Source of the DNA: Tetradesmus obliquus
Taxonomy: Eukaryota > Chlorophyta > Chlorophyceae > Sphaeropleales > Scenedesmaceae
Assembly: GCA_030272155.1 (NCBI GenBank)
Contig: CP126194.1
Location: 4,269,501-4,333,500, forward strand
Length of the DNA: 64,000 bases
Direction: 5' to 3'
The notes under the pieces were generated by a model. That model was given only the letters and a program-made list of their open reading frames with translations, had not been told where the DNA came from and did no database searches. This document shows positions 2,349-64,000 of this stretch, one piece after another. The stretch's first letter is position 1; each line of letters opens with the position of its first letter. A program made the translations under genes and the position numbers.

Positions 2349-3662
2349 GCTGCTGCTCACGCGGGCCTGCTTCGCCTGAACGTTGGCAGCGCATGCCAGG
2401 CGCATGGTGCGTTCTGCTAGCGTTATGAGTGAAGTTGTGACTATCGAGACCGATCCGATGTATTGACTGGCGGATGATCAGACGTTTTGGGGTCCGCGCA
2501 GCTGCGGCATCAAATAGCTGATGTGGCTTGGCTGCAGCACTGCAGATACCGCGGTCTCAAGCAATACAATAATATTTTTCTCTAACCTTGTTTGTGCCAG
2601 ACAAGCATTGAGTTGCAACTCTCACGGCAAAACCAAAATGCTTGCGTTACATCCGACTCAGCTGCTGGCGTGGCACAGCAGCAAAATATCTCCACATGAC
2701 AACTCTGGCTTCTCAATGGGTGCACGTGGAACATCGCCTCCTCCAAGCACAACTATTGGAATTCAGCTGACAACATGCAACAGCAAGCCAGGCAACCACA
2801 AACGCTGCGCAACGCACTCAAAGAGGAGCCACTCAACTACCGGCGCCTCGCAACTGCAAACAACTGCACCCACATGCCCTATATGCCGCACATTCTCAAG
2901 TGATCCTCATCCATTTCAGCCTTAAAAACACCAAAGCAGTCTAAAATGTGCAAGTGTGTTGCTGGCAGAACATGCAACAGCACAGGCGCACCCAGTGAGG
3001 GGCCACAGAGCAGTTTGACAGTACAATGCGTAACATACAAGTGCCGTGCACGGGAACCGCTGGTTGCTCTGAACTTCCAACGTACATGCCCCAATAGCCT
3101 ACCAGCACTTGTCAGTCGGCTGTGCATGCTGAGCAGAAGCTTCATGAGAGTCTGCTCCCACCCGGCTCCCTGCAACACACCAACCCCTACCTGCCTCCCT
3201 ACAACGTGCATCTCTAAAGCACACACACCGCACCAACCCATTCCAGCTCTTTCAGCTGCTGACTGCTGCACCTTCTGCCCCACACAACACTGCAGCCCGG
3301 TCCACTCAGCGCTGCCCTTAGGCAACAACCCGAGTTGCGAGTCACCGCATGCACTTGCAGAGGTGTCACCCTGGCGCGTGCAGGCCACAACAGCTGTTTG
3401 TCAGCTAAGCGCAGCCCAGCTCTCATCCTGCCGTGGTAGCATTTCCGCAAGCTGCAGCGCCACCATTAGCGTCCCTTTACTCTTTGCACTTTGCTGCATG
3501 CCAAGACAGGCTCCTGGCGGTTCGGCTGCACAGCCTCTGGCAGCTGCCAACACACACTCACAGAGCTAAAGAAGCATCTGGTGTCTGCTTGCCCTGCACC
3601 ACAAGTAAGATAGATATTTGCAGCCTTGTGCTGTTCGGGGTTTCTCTGCCAACTGCCGCAGC
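2349..3662. other. Intergenic: lipase 5' side and antiporter 3' side
   Basis: No gene recognised. The left end should hold the promoter of the minus-strand lipase, and the right end the 3' UTR of the minus-strand antiporter. Open frames here have no coding-like composition and no splice-consistent extension. Confidence 0.4.
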
Positions 3663-8015
<4,353 letters not shown>

Positions 8016-51053: not shown

Positions 51054-51998
51054 GCGGTACTGCATACCTTAGCCCTCCCAGCCAAGGGGTTTTGGAGCAT
51101 GGTGTTGATTTGCGCGGTGATGTGTCGATACACATTGAGTGTGCTGTGTGCTGGCTTCAAGTGCTGAGCTGTCCCTGACGGTCATGGTTTACAAATGTTC
51201 AATGCCGACTCTGGTTTGTGTGCAAGAACATGCTTTGCTGGCTGTTCTTGCTGTGTGCGTTTGGAGGCTGGTGGGTCATGGCTTGCTGCCTGCCCACCCC
51301 AGCTGCAGGAACATCGGGTGTGTGCAAGGATATGTGTGCAAGGATATGTTCTGTTGGAGAGCAATGCCAAATTGAGAGAAAAGCTGTGCAGCCACCCTGA
51401 TGAAATGGGTGGCGAGCAGGCTGAATAGGGGCACTTTGAAACACAGTATGGCCTTTGAATTCTACTGCCCCAGCCGTTGGAGCTGCTGTGTGTCGTATGA
51501 TTACTGACATTGTTGGTAGGTCACAGCCAGCTCCGAGTCGGGTGTGGTCACGCAAGTGTGTTATGGCAGCGCCTGCATGACTGCACTGCACTCTCTACTG
51601 GCAGAGGGGCCCTTTTGCTAGACCCTAATTGCAGTGGGCTGGGCCTGCTAGACCCCTGCCCTAGCTAGCTATAGCAGTGGTTATGGCGAGACAGAGCAGA
51701 CCCCTAGCTACCCTAGCCAGGTGGCACCCTAGCCCGGCCAAGCTGGGGGCTAGCAGCGGGCCTAGCTGGCGACCTAGCAGGGTCTAGTTGCAACTTGCTT
51801 GTTGACGTTCACAATTTGCGTTTGCTGCATTGGTCAAGCTGGGCAGACCGGCTGGCGCCCCAACGAACGACTCTTCCGTGACGTCATCACCACTGCCATC
51901 AATGATGTTGTTTACGATAGCACATGCACCTGAACCTACAGCAACATTAGCGACGCTGCTTGGCAGCCCCGATGCCTCGCAGACCCTAGGGCGCGCTG
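51054..51998. other. Spacer between the sulfatase gene and the tandem array; CTAG-rich segment
   Basis: No gene recognised. 51617-51790 holds about a dozen CTAG tetramers, most within GCTAGACCC or CCCTAGC contexts, far above chance. 51830-51998 is open in one frame up to the array edge, but without an ATG. Confidence 0.6.
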
Positions 51999-52000
51999 CT

Positions 52001-52025
52001 CAGCTAGGTATGGTACAAACGTAGC
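52001..52025 (+). repeat. Inverted repeat, left arm
   Basis: CAGCTAGGTATGGTACAAAC then GTAGC. Its reverse complement recurs at 52697-52721 with two changes (GCTACGTTTGTACCAT then GCCCAGCTG). In units 2 and 3 four more outer bases (GTCT) also pair. The outer edge coincides with the left edge of the array. Confidence 0.85.
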
Positions 52026-52696
52026 ATCTGCATTTTGCAACAAATCAACACAGCTTGCAAGCAGACAGCCATGCTGGCATAGCAACCTGCTGTATGTGGC
52101 AGGCACAGTAAGGCACAGCTGCCAGTGCTGCTGCTTTGGTTTGCTTGCATCCCAGTTGCACAGCAGGGCCCTCACCTGCCAGCAGCAGCAGCTCCAAACT
52201 GCTAGTGATTTTGAGCTCCAGAATTCGCCTTGATCACACAGCATGGATGTTTGCAGGAAACTGTGTAGAATACTAGTACTCAACAAACTCTGTGCAGCCA
52301 CACTAGCTGCACGCGCGCAGCAGCTGCCGGTGGGCCTGAAGCGGTGTTGAGCAGTATGTAACAGATATGACAGTTGAAATGGCATGTGCAGCGCACAGCG
52401 CAAAGCAGCAGAGCGCAACCGCAGCGGCAGGGCACTTGGCACACCAGAACTGCAGTGCCTGATCAGCCAGCAAGGGAAGGCCAGAAGTATTACAATACAC
52501 ATCAAAACACGTTGCAGGCAGCAGCACCCACAGCAACACTCTACAGCGCAAGTTAACATATGTAACAGCCGAGTCGGGGCACTTCAGGGCAACGTGTTTT
52601 CAGCACTTTTCTTGCAGCACACTGTGCCACTGCTAACAGCTCAAATTGATTTAGATTCGTCGTTGAAAGCTTGACATTTATATGTAGGCCACTTGT

Positions 52697-52721
52697 TCGC
52701 TACGTTTGTACCATGCCCAGC
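52697..52721 (-). repeat. Inverted repeat, right arm
   Basis: Partner of 52001-52025. It is followed by a separate perfect 8-bp stem, GGTCAAAC (52727) pairing with GTTTGACC (52758), just upstream of the transposase frame. Confidence 0.8.
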
Positions 52722-52831
52722 TGAGACCGGTCAAACTCCATGATGCTGCATGCTGTTGTTTGACCTGACCAGTTACTTCTGTTCACACTGCCGCTAGAAG
52801 CACAGCTAACATATCCATATGTTTTGGATTC

Positions 52832-55035
52832 ATGCCTGCAGGGGGGCTGTCCATGGTGCGCAGGCACCCTTCGGGATGGAAGAGCAACCGCAGTACCACG
52901 GCCATGAGGGTGGCGGCGGTGGTGTGTGTGATAATGGCTTTGACCACCGCTGACGAAAAGATTACCCCCGCATACTATTACAGAGAGCAGTACCCTGACT
53001 ACGCCAAGGAGGTACACGGGGACCTGAACCGGTTCTGCAGACTTCATCACAAGAACTTCACAGCAAACGGCACAGTGGCTACACCCAAGCATGGCGGCAG
53101 GCCCTCAAATGTCCCACATGCTGTCGCCTTCCATGCCAGCACAATATTCAAGGCTGGCAAGGTGGTAAAGGCCTACCCATCTGCAGATTCAAAGAGAAAG
53201 GTTGATGTGCACGTGTGGTGGACTTCAATCGAAGTCGCATGTCAGGAAAATGACACACTGCGCCAGCTGTGCACTGACTACAACATCACACCCAAGAGAC
53301 TGCTGAAGTACATGAAATGGGCTGACCCCGACCTGGTGCGCAGGAGAATAGATGTGAAGCTGGACTTGACAAAGATACAGAAACAAAGGCGAAAGGCAGC
53401 AGCTGCGGCACTGTGGCAGAAGTACCAAAGTGACCCCGACATGCTGCAGCGCATATATTTCATTGATGAGTGCAAATTCTGGATGTCAGACCTGGCAGGC
53501 GGCTCCGTCAAAGTCTATTGTGATGCACACGATGAAAACGTGCATGCTGTGCTGCCATGCAAATGGATGCGCAAGGGCAAGGACGCAGAGCCGGTCAAGT
53601 TGCACTTTGTCTGCGCCGTCAACGCTGTGCACGGGCCCGTCTACTGCACGTTTGTCACCGGCACAACAGACAACAAGGACCATGCTGGCAACCTCAATGT
53701 ACCGTACATGGTGAGTGTGCGCTGCTACTGCGCAGGCGCCTGCCATTGAAAGACATGCCAGCCCTGCTGTACTATGTAGTAACAGTCCCGCAGTGCTTTT
53801 TTTAGTGCTGTAGTGAAGCTGCAGCGCTGCCCGTCCTCTGCTGTGAACATAACAGCAGAGTAACTTGGTGACAGTACAATGACACCACCTGCAGCAGCAA
53901 GCTGGAAACCAATGTGCAAGGATTGGTGCATGTCACATCCGCGCGTGCTCACGCGCAGCACACTGCCCCCTGGCTGCAGCCAGTTGTCATATGCTGCAGC
54001 GCAGAACTCAAAGTCGCGCTCCAGCACCTGCTGCCTGCTGCTGCTGTAATAACCCTTGTCATGACATGAGCCATCAGCTTGAATCAGCATGTTGTGCTGT
54101 GCATGGATGAAATCAATCCGCCCATCCCACCAGTCCACTGCTACCTGAGCACACATACTGCTGCTGATGCCTAACCAGTACAGCATGTGCACCAGCTGCT
54201 CCTCGCTTGTGTGCATGTAGCCCATGCATGTGCCAACCATATCAGCCAGCACACATGCACACATCTTGCACTGAAGCGCTGCTGCTGTGGCGACTGCACG
54301 CGGCGCGCAGAACTTGAAGTGCTGCACACCTGGCAAGCAGCCAGTCAAGCCCCAGAACAATCTCTGCCCCCTCATAGACTTGGTGATGTATCTGACCTTG
54401 TCTGCACTGAGCCTGATGTAGAAGCGTCCCATCGCATCCATCCACACCGCTGCGTTGCGCTCCTGCGCTGCTAACAAGGCTGCGCGCTGCCAATCCGGCA
54501 ATTCTTGCACCTGCAGTTGAAGGACAAACCAACCCAGCAGGCCAAGAGCATGACTCAGCTGGAGTTTGTTCACTGCATGATTGAGATCAAAGACATAGCC
54601 AACCAACAGCAGGCGCAGCGCGGCACTACGCCGCTGTACATCTTTGACAACCCAAGTGTTCACCTGGGGAAGGATGGCCTACAGATGTTAGTTGCAGGCG
54701 GCATCAATGAAGATCAACTGCTGCACATTGCACCCTACTCCCCAGATTTCAACAAGCCCATTGAACATGCATTTGGCAGCCTCAAAGCAGCCTTCCGCAA
54801 CTACTTGTATAACAGCTGCCAGCTGGGTGGTGCTGATGTGAAGCCGCGAGACCTGCAGCACGGCCTGAACAACACCTTCATGAAGATCACAGCTGCATCT
54901 GTCATGGCTGATGTATTGAAGCTGCCAGATTTGTGGAATATGGTGCGCAGTCGCAAGAGGAGTCTTTGTGTGTGCCGAGACGGGAAGCAGCGCAGCGGCA
55001 CTGCTGGTGACTACCCCAGGAAGGACCAACGCTGA
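52832..55035 (+). CDS. Tc1/mariner-type DDE transposase (unit 1), split by an 806-bp intron
   Basis: Cut-and-paste transposase of the Tc1/mariner superfamily. Exon 1 52832-53710 and exon 2 54517-55035 join in phase 0 to 465 aa. The N-terminal half is basic and suits DNA binding. The catalytic triad reads D212 in IYFIDECKFWM, D337 in YIFDNPSVHLG, and E376 in APYSPDFNKPIEHAFGSLK, the standard 'PYSPDLNPIEH' motif. The second Asp and the Glu are 38 residues apart (DD38E). The intron (53711-54516) starts GTGAGT and ends TTGCACCTGCAG. The C-terminal tail is basic (SRKRSLCVC, then YPRKDQR). The start is uncertain: the ATG overlaps a possible acceptor (TGCCTGCAG), so an upstream exon may exist. All residues needed for activity appear present. 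Confidence 0.9.
53725..54441 (-). CDS. Vsr/EDxHD-like nuclease, candidate homing endonuclease, inside the transposase intron (unit 1)
   Basis: A 238-aa frame on the strand opposite the transposase that fills most of its intron; the stop lies 14 bp from the intron edge. Counting from the ATG at 54441: a helix with E80/E81 (HTSEEQLVHMLYWLG), D110 in DGRIDFI, D123 and H127 in LIQADGSCHDKG, D143 in LERDFEFCAAAYD, and R163 in GGSVLRVSTR. This E..D..DGxxH..D..R order is that of Vsr-related PD-(D/E)XK nucleases (EDxHD type), known as homing enzymes in phage introns. C45, C58, C61 and C63 might bind zinc. The frame stays open upstream into antisense of exon 2, so the true start is uncertain; 54441 keeps the gene inside the intron. 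Function is inferred from this motif order and location only. Confidence 0.65.
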   Translation of the reverse strand: MDAMGRFYIRLSADKVRYITKSMRGQRLFWGLTGCLPGVQHFKFCAPRAVATAAALQCKMCACVLADMVGTCMGYMHTSEEQLVHMLYWLGISSSMCAQVAVDWWDGRIDFIHAQHNMLIQADGSCHDKGYYSSSRQQVLERDFEFCAAAYDNWLQPGGSVLRVSTRGCDMHQSLHIGFQLAAAGGVIVLSPSYSAVMFTAEDGQRCSFTTALKKALRDCYYIVQQGWHVFQWQAPAQ

Positions 55036-56128
55036 GTCTGCTGTTGTGCTGCTGCATGGCATGTTGTGCATGTGGCTGTCAGCTGCATGCAAGATGGCTG
55101 GCAGCAGTGCACAGGCTGACTTTCAGAGAGCCCTTGAGCTCACCTGTTTGAAGGCACCTGCGCTTGCCGCCGTCCTGCATGTTCGCACCGCCCGGGGCTT
55201 GGGAGGTGCTGGCACCATGCTGCTGTAGGGTGGTTACTTCCTGGTGTTCACCTGAGAGCGAGTGTGGGAAGGAAATGGCATGTTCAGAAGCTTATTGTAT
55301 GAGTAAAATATATTTGGATGTTGAGCTTTGGTGCTTAGACTTGTCAGGAGTGGTTTCTGCTTTGAACGACTGCTGCCAGGCAGCAAGGCACTTGGTGGCC
55401 ATTTCACATACAGGCATTTGCAGTCATGCTGAATTGCCGATTGTAATGGTAAAACGATTGGTATAATTCAATTACGCTCGTAGCTATGGAACATGGCTCC
55501 TGCTGCTGTCACTCGCGTTGGTTGTGACAACTGTTGGCCTGCCAAGCGATATGCACGGAGCCTGCAAGAAACATTGCGGTTGATTTTTTTCTATATTTGA
55601 CGATTGCTTTAAGCATGGCGTGAGCCGAAATAAGCTGCGGTATGGTGAAGAACTTCAAGACGGAATGTGCCGTGAAACAAGCCTGCTCCAGGCCACACAG
55701 CTTCCACGCTGCTCACTAATTAACGTCGACACATTATGTAACGTACCTTTGGTTGAGGTAGAAAACCAACTGCGAAGGGCCCTCGCAAGCCCACCGTGCA
55801 GGTGAGCCTGACGGGTCAACACGGATGTCCAGAGCACTGCAGCTCGATCGTGTTGCTGCAGCACCTGCAAACAATTGGTATTGAACATTAAACGACGTTA
55901 AACACAGCGCTGTGCCGAAAGCCTTCGCCAATAAATTTGGTGGCAGCAGTGAGGCACCTGCTGGCACATGCTGCTGCTGTCACGCCCACCAACGACTGCA
56001 GTTGAAAAACACATGCCACCGTGATTCAAAGCACACATAGCTGTAACGTTTCCTGCTGTTTGCTGCTGCTGCTGCTCCTGCCCAGGCAGATATCATGTAT
56101 TGCAAACAGCACTACTGCCGCAGAAAAA
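55036..56128. other. Transposase 3' region of unit 1, no gene recognised
   Basis: TGTAA occurs at 55442-55446, about 400 bp after the transposase stop, and could serve as its polyadenylation signal. AT-rich around 55290-55320 and 55570-55615. The equivalent regions of unit 2 (59316-60408) and unit 3 (63596-64000) are the same. Confidence 0.4.
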
Positions 56129-56839
56129 TCAGCTGCATACCCAGCAGCAGCAGGAGCACATCAGCCATAGCATAAAAAGGTAGGTGTGCACTTCAGGCAC
56201 CAAGTCCAGGAACAGCAACAGAAGGGATGCAGTGCAGGCTAAGAACTGCTGCAGCAAAGGCTGGCATGCATTGACAGTCTCAGCTAGGTATGGTACAAAC
56301 GTAGCATCTGCATTTTGCAACAAATCAACACAGCTTGCAAGCAGACAGCCATGCTGGCATAGCAACCTGCTGTATGTGGCAGGCACAGTAAGGCACAGCT
56401 GCCAGTGCTGCTGCTTTGGTTTGCTTGCATCCCAGTTGCACAGCAGGGCCCTCACCTGCCAGCAGCAGCAGCTCCAAACTGCTAGTGATTTTGAGCTCCA
56501 GAATTCGCCTTGATCACACAGCATGGATGTTTGCAGGAAACTGTGTAGAATACTAGTACTCAACAAACTCTGTGCAGCCACACTAGCTGCACGCGCGCAG
56601 CAGCTGCCGGTGGGCCTGAAGCGGTGTTGAGCAGTATGTAACAGATATGACAGTTGAAATGGCATGTGCAGCGCACAGCGCAAAGCAGCAGAGCGCAACC
56701 GCAGCGGCAGGGCACTTGGCACACCAGAACTGCAGTGCCTGATCAGCCAGCAAGGGAAGGCCAGAAGTATTACAATACACATCAAAACACGTTGCAGGCA
56801 GCAGCACCCACAGCAACACTCTACAGCGCAAGTTAACAT
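56129..56839 (-). CDS. Unidentified 236-aa open frame of the tandem unit (low support)
   Basis: Starts with ATG at 56839 and spans the unit junction. The first half is Cys/Leu-rich and may be spurious. The second half, after a possible acceptor (CTGCTGGCAG, near 56460), reads like part of a helical-repeat protein (LLCNWDASKPKQQHWQLCL, then TYSRLLCQHGCLLASCVDLL). In unit 1 the frame is broken at the array edge (52000). A repeat of it lies at 60409-61119. Could be a captured host exon. I recognise no family. Confidence 0.25.
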   Translation of the reverse strand: MLTCAVECCCGCCCLQRVLMCIVILLAFPCWLIRHCSSGVPSALPLRLRSAALRCALHMPFQLSYLLHTAQHRFRPTGSCCARAASVAAQSLLSTSILHSFLQTSMLCDQGEFWSSKSLAVWSCCCWQVRALLCNWDASKPKQQHWQLCLTVPATYSRLLCQHGCLLASCVDLLQNADATFVPYLAETVNACQPLLQQFLACTASLLLLFLDLVPEVHTYLFMLWLMCSCCCWVCS

Positions 56840-57111
56840 ATGTAACAGCCGAGTCGGGGCACTTCAGGGCAACGTGTTTTCAGCACTTTTCTTGCAGCAC
56901 ACTGTGCCACTGCTAACAGCTCAAATTGATTTAGATTCGTCGTTGAAAGCTTGACATTTATATGTAGGCCACTTGTTCGCTACGTTTGTACCATGCCCAG
57001 CTGAGACCGGTCAAACTCCATGATGCTGCATGCTGTTGTTTGACCTGACCAGTTACTTCTGTTCACACTGCCGCTAGAAGCACAGCTAACATATCCATAT
57101 GTTTTGGATTC

Positions 57112-59315
57112 ATGCCTGCAGGGGGGCTGTCCATGGTGCGCAGGCACCCTTCGGGATGGAAGAGCAACCGCAGTACCACGGCCATGAGGGTGGCGGCGGT
57201 GGTGTGTGTGATAATGGCTTTGACCACCGCTGACGAAAAGATTACCCCCGCATACTATTACAGAGAGCAGTACCCTGACTACGCCAAGGAGGTACACGGG
57301 GACCTGAACCGGTTCTGCAGACTTCATCACAAGAACTTCACAGCAAACGGCACAGTGGCTACACCCAAGCATGGCGGCAGGCCCTCAAATGTCCCACATG
57401 CTGTCGCCTTCCATGCCAGCACAATATTCAAGGCTGGCAAGGTGGTAAAGGCCTACCCATCTGCAGATTCAAAGAGAAAGGTTGATGTGCACGTGTGGTG
57501 GACTTCAATCGAAGTCGCATGTCAGGAAAATGACACACTGCGCCAGCTGTGCACTGACTACAACATCACACCCAAGAGACTGCTGAAGTACATGAAATGG
57601 GCTGACCCCGACCTGGTGCGCAGGAGAATAGATGTGAAGCTGGACTTGACAAAGATACAGAAACAAAGGCGAAAGGCAGCAGCTGCGGCACTGTGGCAGA
57701 AGTACCAAAGTGACCCCGACATGCTGCAGCGCATATATTTCATTGATGAGTGCAAATTCTGGATGTCAGACCTGGCAGGCGGCTCCGTCAAAGTCTATTG
57801 TGATGCACACGATGAAAACGTGCATGCTGTGCTGCCATGCAAATGGATGCGCAAGGGCAAGGACGCAGAGCCGGTCAAGTTGCACTTTGTCTGCGCCGTC
57901 AACGCTGTGCACGGGCCCGTCTACTGCACGTTTGTCACCGGCACAACAGACAACAAGGACCATGCTGGCAACCTCAATGTACCGTACATGGTGAGTGTGC
58001 GCTGCTACTGCGCAGGCGCCTGCCATTGAAAGACATGCCAGCCCTGCTGTACTATGTAGTAACAGTCCCGCAGTGCTTTTTTTAGTGCTGTAGTGAAGCT
58101 GCAGCGCTGCCCGTCCTCTGCTGTGAACATAACAGCAGAGTAACTTGGTGACAGTACAATGACACCACCTGCAGCAGCAAGCTGGAAACCAATGTGCAAG
58201 GATTGGTGCATGTCACATCCGCGCGTGCTCACGCGCAGCACACTGCCCCCTGGCTGCAGCCAGTTGTCATATGCTGCAGCGCAGAACTCAAAGTCGCGCT
58301 CCAGCACCTGCTGCCTGCTGCTGCTGTAATAACCCTTGTCATGACATGAGCCATCAGCTTGAATCAGCATGTTGTGCTGTGCATGGATGAAATCAATCCG
58401 CCCATCCCACCAGTCCACTGCTACCTGAGCACACATACTGCTGCTGATGCCTAACCAGTACAGCATGTGCACCAGCTGCTCCTCGCTTGTGTGCATGTAG
58501 CCCATGCATGTGCCAACCATATCAGCCAGCACACATGCACACATCTTGCACTGAAGCGCTGCTGCTGTGGCGACTGCACGCGGCGCGCAGAACTTGAAGT
58601 GCTGCACACCTGGCAAGCAGCCAGTCAAGCCCCAGAACAATCTCTGCCCCCTCATAGACTTGGTGATGTATCTGACCTTGTCTGCACTGAGCCTGATGTA
58701 GAAGCGTCCCATCGCATCCATCCACACCGCTGCGTTGCGCTCCTGCGCTGCTAACAAGGCTGCGCGCTGCCAATCCGGCAATTCTTGCACCTGCAGTTGA
58801 AGGACAAACCAACCCAGCAGGCCAAGAGCATGACTCAGCTGGAGTTTGTTCACTGCATGATTGAGATCAAAGACATAGCCAACCAACAGCAGGCGCAGCG
58901 CGGCACTACGCCGCTGTACATCTTTGACAACCCAAGTGTTCACCTGGGGAAGGATGGCCTACAGATGTTAGTTGCAGGCGGCATCAATGAAGATCAACTG
59001 CTGCACATTGCACCCTACTCCCCAGATTTCAACAAGCCCATTGAACATGCATTTGGCAGCCTCAAAGCAGCCTTCCGCAACTACTTGTATAACAGCTGCC
59101 AGCTGGGTGGTGCTGATGTGAAGCCGCGAGACCTGCAGCACGGCCTGAACAACACCTTCATGAAGATCACAGCTGCATCTGTCATGGCTGATGTATTGAA
59201 GCTGCCAGATTTGTGGAATATGGTGCGCAGTCGCAAGAGGAGTCTTTGTGTGTGCCGAGACGGGAAGCAGCGCAGCGGCACTGCTGGTGACTACCCCAGG
59301 AAGGACCAACGCTGA
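57112..59315 (+). CDS. DDE transposase, unit 2
   Basis: Exons 57112-57990 and 58797-59315; identical translation to the unit 1 copy, with the same triad and intron phase. Confidence 0.9.
58005..58721 (-). CDS. Vsr/EDxHD-like nuclease, unit 2
   Basis: Identical translation to the unit 1 copy, in the intron 57991-58796. All motif residues are kept. Confidence 0.65.
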   Translation of the reverse strand: MDAMGRFYIRLSADKVRYITKSMRGQRLFWGLTGCLPGVQHFKFCAPRAVATAAALQCKMCACVLADMVGTCMGYMHTSEEQLVHMLYWLGISSSMCAQVAVDWWDGRIDFIHAQHNMLIQADGSCHDKGYYSSSRQQVLERDFEFCAAAYDNWLQPGGSVLRVSTRGCDMHQSLHIGFQLAAAGGVIVLSPSYSAVMFTAEDGQRCSFTTALKKALRDCYYIVQQGWHVFQWQAPAQ

Positions 59316-61391
59316 GTCTGCTGTTGTGCTGCTGCATGGCATGTTGTGCATGTGGCTGTCAGCTGCATGCAAGATGGCTGGCAGCAGTGCACAGGCTGAC
59401 TTTCAGAGAGCCCTTGAGCTCACCTGTTTGAAGGCACCTGCGCTTGCCGCCGTCCTGCATGTTCGCACCGCCCGGGGCTTGGGAGGTGCTGGCACCATGC
59501 TGCTGTAGGGTGGTTACTTCCTGGTGTTCACCTGAGAGCGAGTGTGGGAAGGAAATGGCATGTTCAGAAGCTTATTGTATGAGTAAAATATATTTGGATG
59601 TTGAGCTTTGGTGCTTAGACTTGTCAGGAGTGGTTTCTGCTTTGAACGACTGCTGCCAGGCAGCAAGGCACTTGGTGGCCATTTCACATACAGGCATTTG
59701 CAGTCATGCTGAATTGCCGATTGTAATGGTAAAACGATTGGTATAATTCAATTACGCTCGTAGCTATGGAACATGGCTCCTGCTGCTGTCACTCGCGTTG
59801 GTTGTGACAACTGTTGGCCTGCCAAGCGATATGCACGGAGCCTGCAAGAAACATTGCGGTTGATTTTTTTCTATATTTGACGATTGCTTTAAGCATGGCG
59901 TGAGCCGAAATAAGCTGCGGTATGGTGAAGAACTTCAAGACGGAATGTGCCGTGAAACAAGCCTGCTCCAGGCCACACAGCTTCCACGCTGCTCACTAAT
60001 TAACGTCGACACATTATGTAACGTACCTTTGGTTGAGGTAGAAAACCAACTGCGAAGGGCCCTCGCAAGCCCACCGTGCAGGTGAGCCTGACGGGTCAAC
60101 ACGGATGTCCAGAGCACTGCAGCTCGATCGTGTTGCTGCAGCACCTGCAAACAATTGGTATTGAACATTAAACGACGTTAAACACAGCGCTGTGCCGAAA
60201 GCCTTCGCCAATAAATTTGGTGGCAGCAGTGAGGCACCTGCTGGCACATGCTGCTGCTGTCACGCCCACCAACGACTGCAGTTGAAAAACACATGCCACC
60301 GTGATTCAAAGCACACATAGCTGTAACGTTTCCTGCTGTTTGCTGCTGCTGCTGCTCCTGCCCAGGCAGATATCATGTATTGCAAACAGCACTACTGCCG
60401 CAGAAAAATCAGCTGCATACCCAGCAGCAGCAGGAGCACATCAGCCATAGCATAAAAAGGTAGGTGTGCACTTCAGGCACCAAGTCCAGGAACAGCAACA
60501 GAAGGGATGCAGTGCAGGCTAAGAACTGCTGCAGCAAAGGCTGGCATGCATTGACAGTCTCAGCTAGGTATGGTACAAACGTAGCATCTGCATTTTGCAA
60601 CAAATCAACACAGCTTGCAAGCAGACAGCCATGCTGGCATAGCAACCTGCTGTATGTGGCAGGCACAGTAAGGCACAGCTGCCAGTGCTGCTGCTTTGGT
60701 TTGCTTGCATCCCAGTTGCACAGCAGGGCCCTCACCTGCCAGCAGCAGCAGCTCCAAACTGCTAGTGATTTTGAGCTCCAGAATTCGCCTTGATCACACA
60801 GCATGGATGTTTGCAGGAAACTGTGTAGAATACTAGTACTCAACAAACTCTGTGCAGCCACACTAGCTGCACGCGCGCAGCAGCTGCCGGTGGGCCTGAA
60901 GCGGTGTTGAGCAGTATGTAACAGATATGACAGTTGAAATGGCATGTGCAGCGCACAGCGCAAAGCAGCAGAGCGCAACCGCAGCGGCAGGGCACTTGGC
61001 ACACCAGAACTGCAGTGCCTGATCAGCCAGCAAGGGAAGGCCAGAAGTATTACAATACACATCAAAACACGTTGCAGGCAGCAGCACCCACAGCAACACT
61101 CTACAGCGCAAGTTAACATATGTAACAGCCGAGTCGGGGCACTTCAGGGCAACGTGTTTTCAGCACTTTTCTTGCAGCACACTGTGCCACTGCTAACAGC
61201 TCAAATTGATTTAGATTCGTCGTTGAAAGCTTGACATTTATATGTAGGCCACTTGTTCGCTACGTTTGTACCATGCCCAGCTGAGACCGGTCAAACTCCA
61301 TGATGCTGCATGCTGTTGTTTGACCTGACCAGTTACTTCTGTTCACACTGCCGCTAGAAGCACAGCTAACATATCCATATGTTTTGGATTC

Positions 61392-63595
61392 ATGCCTGCA
61401 GGGGGGCTGTCCATGGTGCGCAGGCACCCTTCGGGATGGAAGAGCAACCGCAGTACCACGGCCATGAGGGTGGCGGCGGTGGTGTGTGTGATAATGGCTT
61501 TGACCACCGCTGACGAAAAGATTACCCCCGCATACTATTACAGAGAGCAGTACCCTGACTACGCCAAGGAGGTACACGGGGACCTGAACCGGTTCTGCAG
61601 ACTTCATCACAAGAACTTCACAGCAAACGGCACAGTGGCTACACCCAAGCATGGCGGCAGGCCCTCAAATGTCCCACATGCTGTCGCCTTCCATGCCAGC
61701 ACAATATTCAAGGCTGGCAAGGTGGTAAAGGCCTACCCATCTGCAGATTCAAAGAGAAAGGTTGATGTGCACGTGTGGTGGACTTCAATCGAAGTCGCAT
61801 GTCAGGAAAATGACACACTGCGCCAGCTGTGCACTGACTACAACATCACACCCAAGAGACTGCTGAAGTACATGAAATGGGCTGACCCCGACCTGGTGCG
61901 CAGGAGAATAGATGTGAAGCTGGACTTGACAAAGATACAGAAACAAAGGCGAAAGGCAGCAGCTGCGGCACTGTGGCAGAAGTACCAAAGTGACCCCGAC
62001 ATGCTGCAGCGCATATATTTCATTGATGAGTGCAAATTCTGGATGTCAGACCTGGCAGGCGGCTCCGTCAAAGTCTATTGTGATGCACACGATGAAAACG
62101 TGCATGCTGTGCTGCCATGCAAATGGATGCGCAAGGGCAAGGACGCAGAGCCGGTCAAGTTGCACTTTGTCTGCGCCGTCAACGCTGTGCACGGGCCCGT
62201 CTACTGCACGTTTGTCACCGGCACAACAGACAACAAGGACCATGCTGGCAACCTCAATGTACCGTACATGGTGAGTGTGCGCTGCTACTGCGCAGGCGCC
62301 TGCCATTGAAAGACATGCCAGCCCTGCTGTACTATGTAGTAACAGTCCCGCAGTGCTTTTTTTAGTGCTGTAGTGAAGCTGCAGCGCTGCCCGTCCTCTG
62401 CTGTGAACATAACAGCAGAGTAACTTGGTGACAGTACAATGACACCACCTGCAGCAGCAAGCTGGAAACCAATGTGCAAGGATTGGTGCATGTCACATCC
62501 GCGCGTGCTCACGCGCAGCACACTGCCCCCTGGCTGCAGCCAGTTGTCATATGCTGCAGCGCAGAACTCAAAGTCGCGCTCCAGCACCTGCTGCCTGCTG
62601 CTGCTGTAATAACCCTTGTCATGACATGAGCCATCAGCTTGAATCAGCATGTTGTGCTGTGCATGGATGAAATCAATCCGCCCATCCCACCAGTCCACTG
62701 CTACCTGAGCACACATACTGCTGCTGATGCCTAACCAGTACAGCATGTGCACCAGCTGCTCCTCGCTTGTGTGCATGTAGCCCATGCATGTGCCAACCAT
62801 ATCAGCCAGCACACATGCACACATCTTGCACTGAAGCGCTGCTGCTGTGGCGACTGCACGCGGCGCGCAGAACTTGAAGTGCTGCACACCTGGCAAGCAG
62901 CCAGTCAAGCCCCAGAACAATCTCTGCCCCCTCATAGACTTGGTGATGTATCTGACCTTGTCTGCACTGAGCCTGATGTAGAAGCGTCCCATCGCATCCA
63001 TCCACACCGCTGCGTTGCGCTCCTGCGCTGCTAACAAGGCTGCGCGCTGCCAATCCGGCAATTCTTGCACCTGCAGTTGAAGGACAAACCAACCCAGCAG
63101 GCCAAGAGCATGACTCAGCTGGAGTTTGTTCACTGCATGATTGAGATCAAAGACATAGCCAACCAACAGCAGGCGCAGCGCGGCACTACGCCGCTGTACA
63201 TCTTTGACAACCCAAGTGTTCACCTGGGGAAGGATGGCCTACAGATGTTAGTTGCAGGCGGCATCAATGAAGATCAACTGCTGCACATTGCACCCTACTC
63301 CCCAGATTTCAACAAGCCCATTGAACATGCATTTGGCAGCCTCAAAGCAGCCTTCCGCAACTACTTGTATAACAGCTGCCAGCTGGGTGGTGCTGATGTG
63401 AAGCCGCGAGACCTGCAGCACGGCCTGAACAACACCTTCATGAAGATCACAGCTGCATCTGTCATGGCTGATGTATTGAAGCTGCCAGATTTGTGGAATA
63501 TGGTGCGCAGTCGCAAGAGGAGTCTTTGTGTGTGCCGAGACGGGAAGCAGCGCAGCGGCACTGCTGGTGACTACCCCAGGAAGGACCAACGCTGA
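61392..63595 (+). CDS. DDE transposase, unit 3
   Basis: Exons 61392-62270 and 63077-63595; identical translation to units 1 and 2. Confidence 0.9.
62285..63001 (-). CDS. Vsr/EDxHD-like nuclease, unit 3
   Basis: Identical translation to units 1 and 2, in the intron 62271-63076. Confidence 0.65.
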   Translation of the reverse strand: MDAMGRFYIRLSADKVRYITKSMRGQRLFWGLTGCLPGVQHFKFCAPRAVATAAALQCKMCACVLADMVGTCMGYMHTSEEQLVHMLYWLGISSSMCAQVAVDWWDGRIDFIHAQHNMLIQADGSCHDKGYYSSSRQQVLERDFEFCAAAYDNWLQPGGSVLRVSTRGCDMHQSLHIGFQLAAAGGVIVLSPSYSAVMFTAEDGQRCSFTTALKKALRDCYYIVQQGWHVFQWQAPAQ

Positions 63596-64000
63596 GTCTG
63601 CTGTTGTGCTGCTGCATGGCATGTTGTGCATGTGGCTGTCAGCTGCATGCAAGATGGCTGGCAGCAGTGCACAGGCTGACTTTCAGAGAGCCCTTGAGCT
63701 CACCTGTTTGAAGGCACCTGCGCTTGCCGCCGTCCTGCATGTTCGCACCGCCCGGGGCTTGGGAGGTGCTGGCACCATGCTGCTGTAGGGTGGTTACTTC
63801 CTGGTGTTCACCTGAGAGCGAGTGTGGGAAGGAAATGGCATGTTCAGAAGCTTATTGTATGAGTAAAATATATTTGGATGTTGAGCTTTGGTGCTTAGAC
63901 TTGTCAGGAGTGGTTTCTGCTTTGAACGACTGCTGCCAGGCAGCAAGGCACTTGGTGGCCATTTCACATACAGGCATTTGCAGTCATGCTGAATTGCCGA

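Follow-up and report, generated by a model that had tools for sequence, protein, structure and literature searches.

The window analysed here, a 64,000-nucleotide stretch of the Tetradesmus obliquus genome, holds a DDE transposase frame broken by a segment of 806 bp whose opposite strand is also open. The question is whether this antisense frame is a gene and, if so, what it does for the element that carries it. An earlier note had taken it for a homing endonuclease gene that could spread its intron among intronless copies of the transposase.

The transposase gene and its intron

Exon 1 of the transposase (52832..53710, + strand) contains the first catalytic aspartate, D1 (residue 212), in the motif IYFIDE, and exon 2 (54517..55035, + strand, stop included) contains D2 (residue 337) in IFDNPSVH and the glutamate in KPIEHAF. 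By count, the catalytic spacing is DD38E. The intervening segment (53711..54516, + strand) has the ends GTGAGT...CACCTGCAG, lies in phase 0 between D1 and D2 and closes with CTGCAG; its length, ends, phase and position had been described in the earlier note and were confirmed. The segment looks like a spliceosomal intron that would be removed from the transposase transcript, and it includes a branch-point-like TGCTAAC (54469..54475, + strand).

Copies of the element were sought in the assembly, which comprises 104.66 Mb in 17 contigs. A search with the antisense protein (150 scored of 279 candidates) returned sequences that were all 96–100% identical, here called subfamily A, and a degenerate exon-2 pattern built to exclude A marked 106 places. 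A second subfamily, B, was defined from six loci of one array (L041-L046). At these loci the transposase is 71–73% and the antisense protein about 57% identical to its counterpart in A, the range for the transposase exons being 70–74%, and the position of the intron and the antisense orientation are unchanged. The start methionine of the transposase is also present in B, and TGCTAAC is identical in A and B. Within loci L001-L063, a set that includes many near-identical array copies and overlapping loci, the acceptor and branch-point-like strings CTTCAACTGCAGGTGCA and GCTGCTAACAAGGC are present in all 47 loci holding the acceptor region, and donors were counted 48 times (37 of A form and 11 of B form).

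The Pfam family DDE_3 matches the transposase within exon 2, with 22.7 bits in A, below the cut-off of 28.6, and 30.3 bits, above it, in the joined partial protein of B, whose scan returned besides this one chance-level UBact match. Five other DDE_3 matches in the genome (L036-L040) have no significant similarity to the transposase, the best E being 0.97. At that chance level, L036 and L039 can be aligned with it at the end of exon 1, where their frames continue without this intron; this agrees with the presence of an intron in the studied gene but proves nothing. At L037 and L038 (C17:1.097 and 1.107 Mb), a DDE_3 transposase frame of 391 codons occurs in two uninterrupted copies. The frames next to the DDE_3 frame of L036 (C6:5906000-5911000) resemble, as judged by eye, a LINE with an apurinic-type endonuclease. 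Exon 1 of the transposase found no relative in viral contigs.

A conserved frame on the opposite strand

The antisense frame (53725..54510, - strand) encodes an N-terminal region, a CxxCxC motif and a DUF559-like core, and its stop codon (53725-53727) lies 14 bp from the transposase donor, as had been noted before. Between A and B the frame shows 224 nucleotide differences over 262 codons and no stop, against 6.9 stops predicted by a simple neutral simulation (the probability of finding none being 0.0016). The amino-acid identity is 57.6%, versus 47.1 +/- 2.0% simulated, a value matched in 0 of 5000 runs, and the frame is more than a product of chance. Over the same codons dS is 0.58, dN 0.31 and omega 0.53, with the remaining five frames of the alignment at omega 0.66–1.05; in the transposase exons, compared over 147 and 171 codons, dS is 0.63 and omega 0.28 and 0.35. 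These comparisons indicate that the antisense frame is a conserved protein gene.

The residues that had been proposed as a nuclease signature were followed in an alignment (A1) of 9 of the 12 translations, the three omitted being L032 with N at D110, L054 with a late stop and L056 with a frameshift. Six of them, E80, D110, D123, G124, H127 and R163, are invariant in all nine sequences. The list stands in its greater part only, as D143 is kept in eight of the nine (N in L041 of subfamily B, D in L052-L054) and D110 is replaced in L032, outside the alignment.

Among recent A copies the nuclease gives no sign of purifying selection. Ten distinct A sequences have 20 nonsynonymous and 4 synonymous changes and 2 stops in the nuclease, against 24 nonsynonymous and 20 synonymous changes in their transposase exons (Fisher p 0.02), and two of the four B haplotypes, of equal length, differ in the nuclease by 31 nonsynonymous and 13 synonymous changes, close to the neutral ratio of 2.8. 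Damaged copies occur in both subfamilies, L056 (A) being frameshifted and L054 (B) ending in a late stop; the nuclease frames of L052 and L053 have gaps relative to L041 and are still open. The absence of stops and the omega of 0.53 between A and B, yet with weak recent constraint, point to a nuclease gene under long-run selection that may be drifting at present.

Identity of the antisense protein

DUF559 is the sole Pfam family that matches the antisense protein, and it does so in all nine members of A1, with a best E of 0.048 and 13.7 bits against a cut-off of 20.6. A DUF559 profile was built from 65 sequences (YcjD and relatives; 16 of 81 were outside the length limits), and the hhalign comparison with it gave a score of 33.7 (Prob 56%) across 34 columns spanning VDF...DGxxHD, compared with 24.0 for the best of 60 column shuffles and 17.8 for the reversed alignment. 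As judged by eye, the motifs E-helix, VDF, DGxxHD and VLR follow one another in the order seen in E. coli YcjD (DUF559, PF04480). In comparison to that family, the studied protein scores below the Pfam cut-off, has Q in all nine aligned sequences for the E of the YcjD motif ELDG, and is elaborated with the N-terminal CxxCxC and additional C-terminal parts. The likeness to Vsr drawn in the earlier note found no profile support: a profile of seven Vsr sequences scored 15.9, within the range of the shuffles, and membership of Vsr was rejected. The DUF559 signal appears weak but specific, and there is moderate support for a DUF559-like (PD-(D/E)XK-like) nuclease.

Two AlphaFold models of the protein are of low confidence (pLDDT 45.5 and 44.7). 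Comparison with PDB sequences returned nothing useful (best E 0.78), PHROGs yielded unnamed or unrelated families only (best E 0.05) and NCBIfam none. No relatives were detected by tblastn among pattern matches in viral contigs or prokaryote genomes. For free-standing relatives in the genome, a degenerate motif gave 5 matches versus 3 in a reversed control and none was recognized by eye in translated frames, while all 6 weak matches from a DUF559 family search of the genome are at copies of the element. Likewise, no nuclease copy outside the element was present among the candidates scored with the A query (150 of 279) or the B query (150 of 273).

A proposed first exon and a possible interlocked gene pair

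The conserved nuclease frame reaches the acceptor side of the transposase intron, and the first methionines of A and B are at different places. Further upstream on the nuclease strand, past the transposase stop, an ATG followed by 25 indel-free open codons and a GTGAGC donor in the phase of the nuclease is common to A and both B sequences. This proposed exon 1 (MVPAPPKPRAVRTCRTAASAGAFKQ; 55144..55218, - strand) would be joined to the conserved frame by removal of a 633-bp intron (54511..55143, - strand) that encloses transposase exon 2, and the two-exon protein would have 286 residues. The candidate is the only ATG-ORF-GTRAG arrangement that occupies the same alignment columns in all three sequences, with 25 codons in each; A and the B array copy have no other candidate of the kind, and the other B copy has one more. 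The donor is intact in 16 of 17 A loci, the region being absent in L031. A candidate of this kind arises in 56% of shuffles of A alone, and the A–B identity of the exon is 60–68%, compared to 52–56% in the upstream and 63–65% in the downstream flank. Taken together, the nuclease gene is probably itself spliced and extends outside the transposase intron, its proposed first exon lying approximately 630 bp beyond it.

With this exon included, nuclease exon 2 (53725-54510) and transposase exon 2 (54517-55035) are parted by the palindrome CTGCAG (54511-54516, both strands) alone, which would form the end of the 3' splice site for both genes. The hexamer is not rare, occurring 178 times in the window. 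There is fair support from the sequence for a reciprocal interleaving of the two genes in which one palindromic CTGCAG acceptor serves both strands. If the genes are indeed interlocked, transcription of either one across the other could make their expression mutually exclusive. Such a pair would show in very compact form how antisense coding and splicing constrain a mobile element, and the shared palindromic splice site leads to a clear prediction at the RNA level.

Structure and copies of the element

The two genes are part of a repeated unit, of which the window contains three in tandem, identical as far as covered and spaced at 4280 bp. The first is composed of a 723-bp long terminal direct repeat (LTDR; 52001..52723, + strand), which has inverted ends of its own of about 25 bp (CAGCTAGG...CCCAGCTG) and recurs at 56281-57003 and 60561-61283, and an internal region (INT; 52724..56280, + strand). 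An identical second LTDR-INT unit follows (56281..60560, + strand), and the third (60561..64000, + strand) is cut by the window end, beyond which the array closes with an LTDR (L035). The whole array is flanked by a 3-bp target-site duplication (TSD), GCT, with the left copy at 51998..52000 and the right copy after the last LTDR, past the window end.

Complete A monomers are about 5 kb in length, consisting of the 723-bp LTDR, an INT of about 3.56 kb and a second LTDR, and the ends of the element are CAG...CTG. All three complete monomers examined have 3-bp TSDs (L032 AAT, L033 AAC, L034 GGT), as do two of three solo LTDRs (L061 GTG, L062 TAT; none in L063). No TSD is found at the ends of L031, a rearranged A copy in which the second LTDR is inverted. 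Some array units are spaced at 3.56 kb and are devoid of the LTDR, and 3 bp of the LTDR end are left in each of three A junctions read (CAG in L057, CTG in L059 and L060); these joints look like the outcome of cut-and-paste excision of single LTDRs. In the B copy L052 (C6:5537500-5543500), the match to the B array stops inside transposase exon 1, and the LTDR is opposite to the orientation of the body compared with A. Together with L031, this copy suggests that the orientation of the LTDR may be free to flip.

The density of variable sites among A copies is 0.027 in exon 1, 0.030 in the intron, 0.038 in the 5' leader, 0.041 in exon 2, 0.059 in the LTDR and 0.044–0.166 in the 3' region. Variation is by far the highest at unit positions 3425-3960 (55423-55958 of the window), where 16.6% of the sites vary, a pattern that recombination between two divergent versions might produce.

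Arrays of 27 and 38 units were found on C5 and C4, and the units within each score alike. Very long tandem arrays, each of roughly 20 to 50 near-identical units, are located at C4:127-273 kb, C5:1.16-1.27 Mb, C12:3.95-4.04 Mb and C13:1.05-1.27 Mb. Several contigs contain more than one array, for which reason the idea that the arrays mark centromeres was dropped. A search with the B protein (150 scored of 273 candidates) gave, as counted by eye, 103 rows at 97–100% identity, 45 A copies and two further rows, one of 88% identity and one of 96% that contains a stop. In the search with the A protein, eleven rows on C17 share a TGA at codon 257 of 263 of the nuclease; these copies have evidently multiplied after that mutation, so that amplification there was independent of an intact nuclease in cis.

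The role of the nuclease

At the sequence level one sees LTDRs that carry inverted ends of their own, solo LTDRs, 3-bp duplications, excision footprints, arrays, a DDE transposase and an antisense gene that occupies the same intron in both of the diverged subfamilies. To the reading that combines them, a two-gene composite-like DNA transposon of the form LTDR-INT-LTDR with interleaved genes, a DUF559-like nuclease and multiplication of the kind proposed for KolobokP of animals (Kojima and Bao 2022, PMC9587614), we give an even chance. By analogy to KolobokP, the transposase would move LTDR-ended units by cut-and-paste, the nuclease would break the DNA of the element, given the presumed cleavage activity, and the breaks would drive unequal repair between sister chromatids, by which LTDR-INT units are added in place. 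In this manner the nuclease may promote multimerisation.

A chance frame that makes no protein is a very remote prospect, even though G+C- and CAG-rich DNA has many long open frames; the A–B omega and simulation, the residue conservation in A1 and the DUF559 profile match bring it close to refutation. It is less improbable, while still rather unlikely, that a former nuclease persists as drifting passenger sequence. The excess of nonsynonymous changes within A (20:4, set against 24:20 in the transposase exons) and the 31:13 in B would fit such decay, as would the stops or frameshift in some copies, the change of D110 to N in L032 and of D143 to N in one B lineage, and the Q for E throughout the alignment. 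The omega of 0.53 and the lack of stops over 262 codons between A and B speak against it, and so do L052 and L053, where gaps relative to L041 have kept the frame open.

The nuclease could instead be an accessory of transposition itself, processing ends or cutting a strand beside the DDE enzyme, much as TnsA works beside TnsB. We consider this unlikely, though the least so of the rival readings. The 3-bp footprints resemble those of ordinary mariner-type excision, a helper-independent process, and neither a fusion nor a shared domain is seen; on the other hand, both genes have been together since before the split of A and B, and KolobokE has a PD-(D/E)XK exonuclease-like domain with its transposase (PMC9587614). 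Intron homing, with cleavage of intronless transposase genes by the nuclease and subsequent copying of the intron into them, has a precedent in the spliceosomal homing introns (shintrons) of mirusviruses, including 16 VSR-like cases (PMC12768974). Conversion could also explain why the intron, whose codons look unconstrained, has diverged among A copies about as little as the exons have. The genome itself argues otherwise: intronless junction patterns, with up to 3 mismatches allowed, had 0 matches for A, versus 163 for the intron-containing donor junction of A, and 0 for B (the positive control being for A only), and of 538 candidates for a peptide query across the spliced junction, the 150 that were scored included no match spanning it. 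The similar dS of nuclease and transposase (0.58 versus 0.63) gives no sign of independent spread, and since the proposed first coding exon is outside the intron, the intron alone would not carry the complete gene. Homing as put forward in the earlier note was accordingly set aside as the main reading, and we regard it as improbable. The preferred reading remains that of a two-gene composite-like transposon.

Comparison with known systems

Transposons of the IS630/Tc1/mariner kind duplicate a TA target. The studied transposase resembles this kind through its DDE_3 match, above the cut-off in B, whereas the element is flanked by 3-bp TSDs. Mirusvirus shintrons are GT-AG spliceosomal introns that contain an endonuclease gene, in some cases a VSR-like one (PMC12768974). 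The likeness lies in an endonuclease-like gene within a GT-AG intron of spliceosomal type; the studied intron differs in belonging to a cellular transposon, in a gene that probably extends past it and in that no empty site was found in its own genome. Antisense homing endonuclease genes with spliceosomal introns are described from group I introns of nuclear rDNA (PMC9548176). They resemble the present case in having an antisense nuclease gene, itself spliced (as proposed here), within an intron, although in the rDNA case the host is a group I intron that splices itself.

The closest match in organization is KolobokP, which is likewise composite-like, with a DDE transposase on one strand and a homing-type endonuclease on the complementary strand (PMC9587614). 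Common to both are the arrangement LTDR-INT-LTDR, LTDRs with their own short inverted ends, solo LTDRs, (LTDR-INT)n-LTDR arrays, LTDR-less INT-INT joints and LTDR excision (PMC9587614). The studied element also differs from KolobokP in several respects (PMC9587614). By its Pfam match the studied transposase is probably of the DDE_3 (IS630/Tc1/mariner) kind, which would set it apart from the Kolobok DDD/E enzyme. The TSDs are AAT, AAC, GGT, GCT, GTG and TAT and the ends CAG...CTG, in contrast to a TTAA-type target and RR...YY termini. In Pfam scans the antisense protein matched DUF559 only, whereas KolobokP has a His-Me finger nuclease. The KolobokP nuclease is described as downstream of the transposase, whereas the studied one appears to be threaded through the transposase intron. 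With target duplication and termini differing, and transposase kind and nuclease differing by their Pfam matches, the studied element is probably a convergent counterpart of KolobokP, not a member.

Searches of the open-licence PubMed Central literature brought up no account of the studied element, none of transposon genes that interlock and, apart from KolobokP, none of a DNA transposon with LTDRs. The authors of KolobokP propose nuclease-induced unequal crossover, and by their account this role of the nuclease in the multiplication of elements still awaits experimental validation (PMC9587614). In our estimate the chances are balanced that two genes on opposite strands are interlocked here, each with its second exon in the other's intron and with one palindromic hexamer as 3' splice site, and that the composite-plus-nuclease design has evolved anew from a transposase and a nuclease that are both unrelated to those of KolobokP. 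If the combination of direct-repeat ends, transposase and endonuclease did evolve more than once, this would argue for a real role of the nuclease in multiplying such elements.
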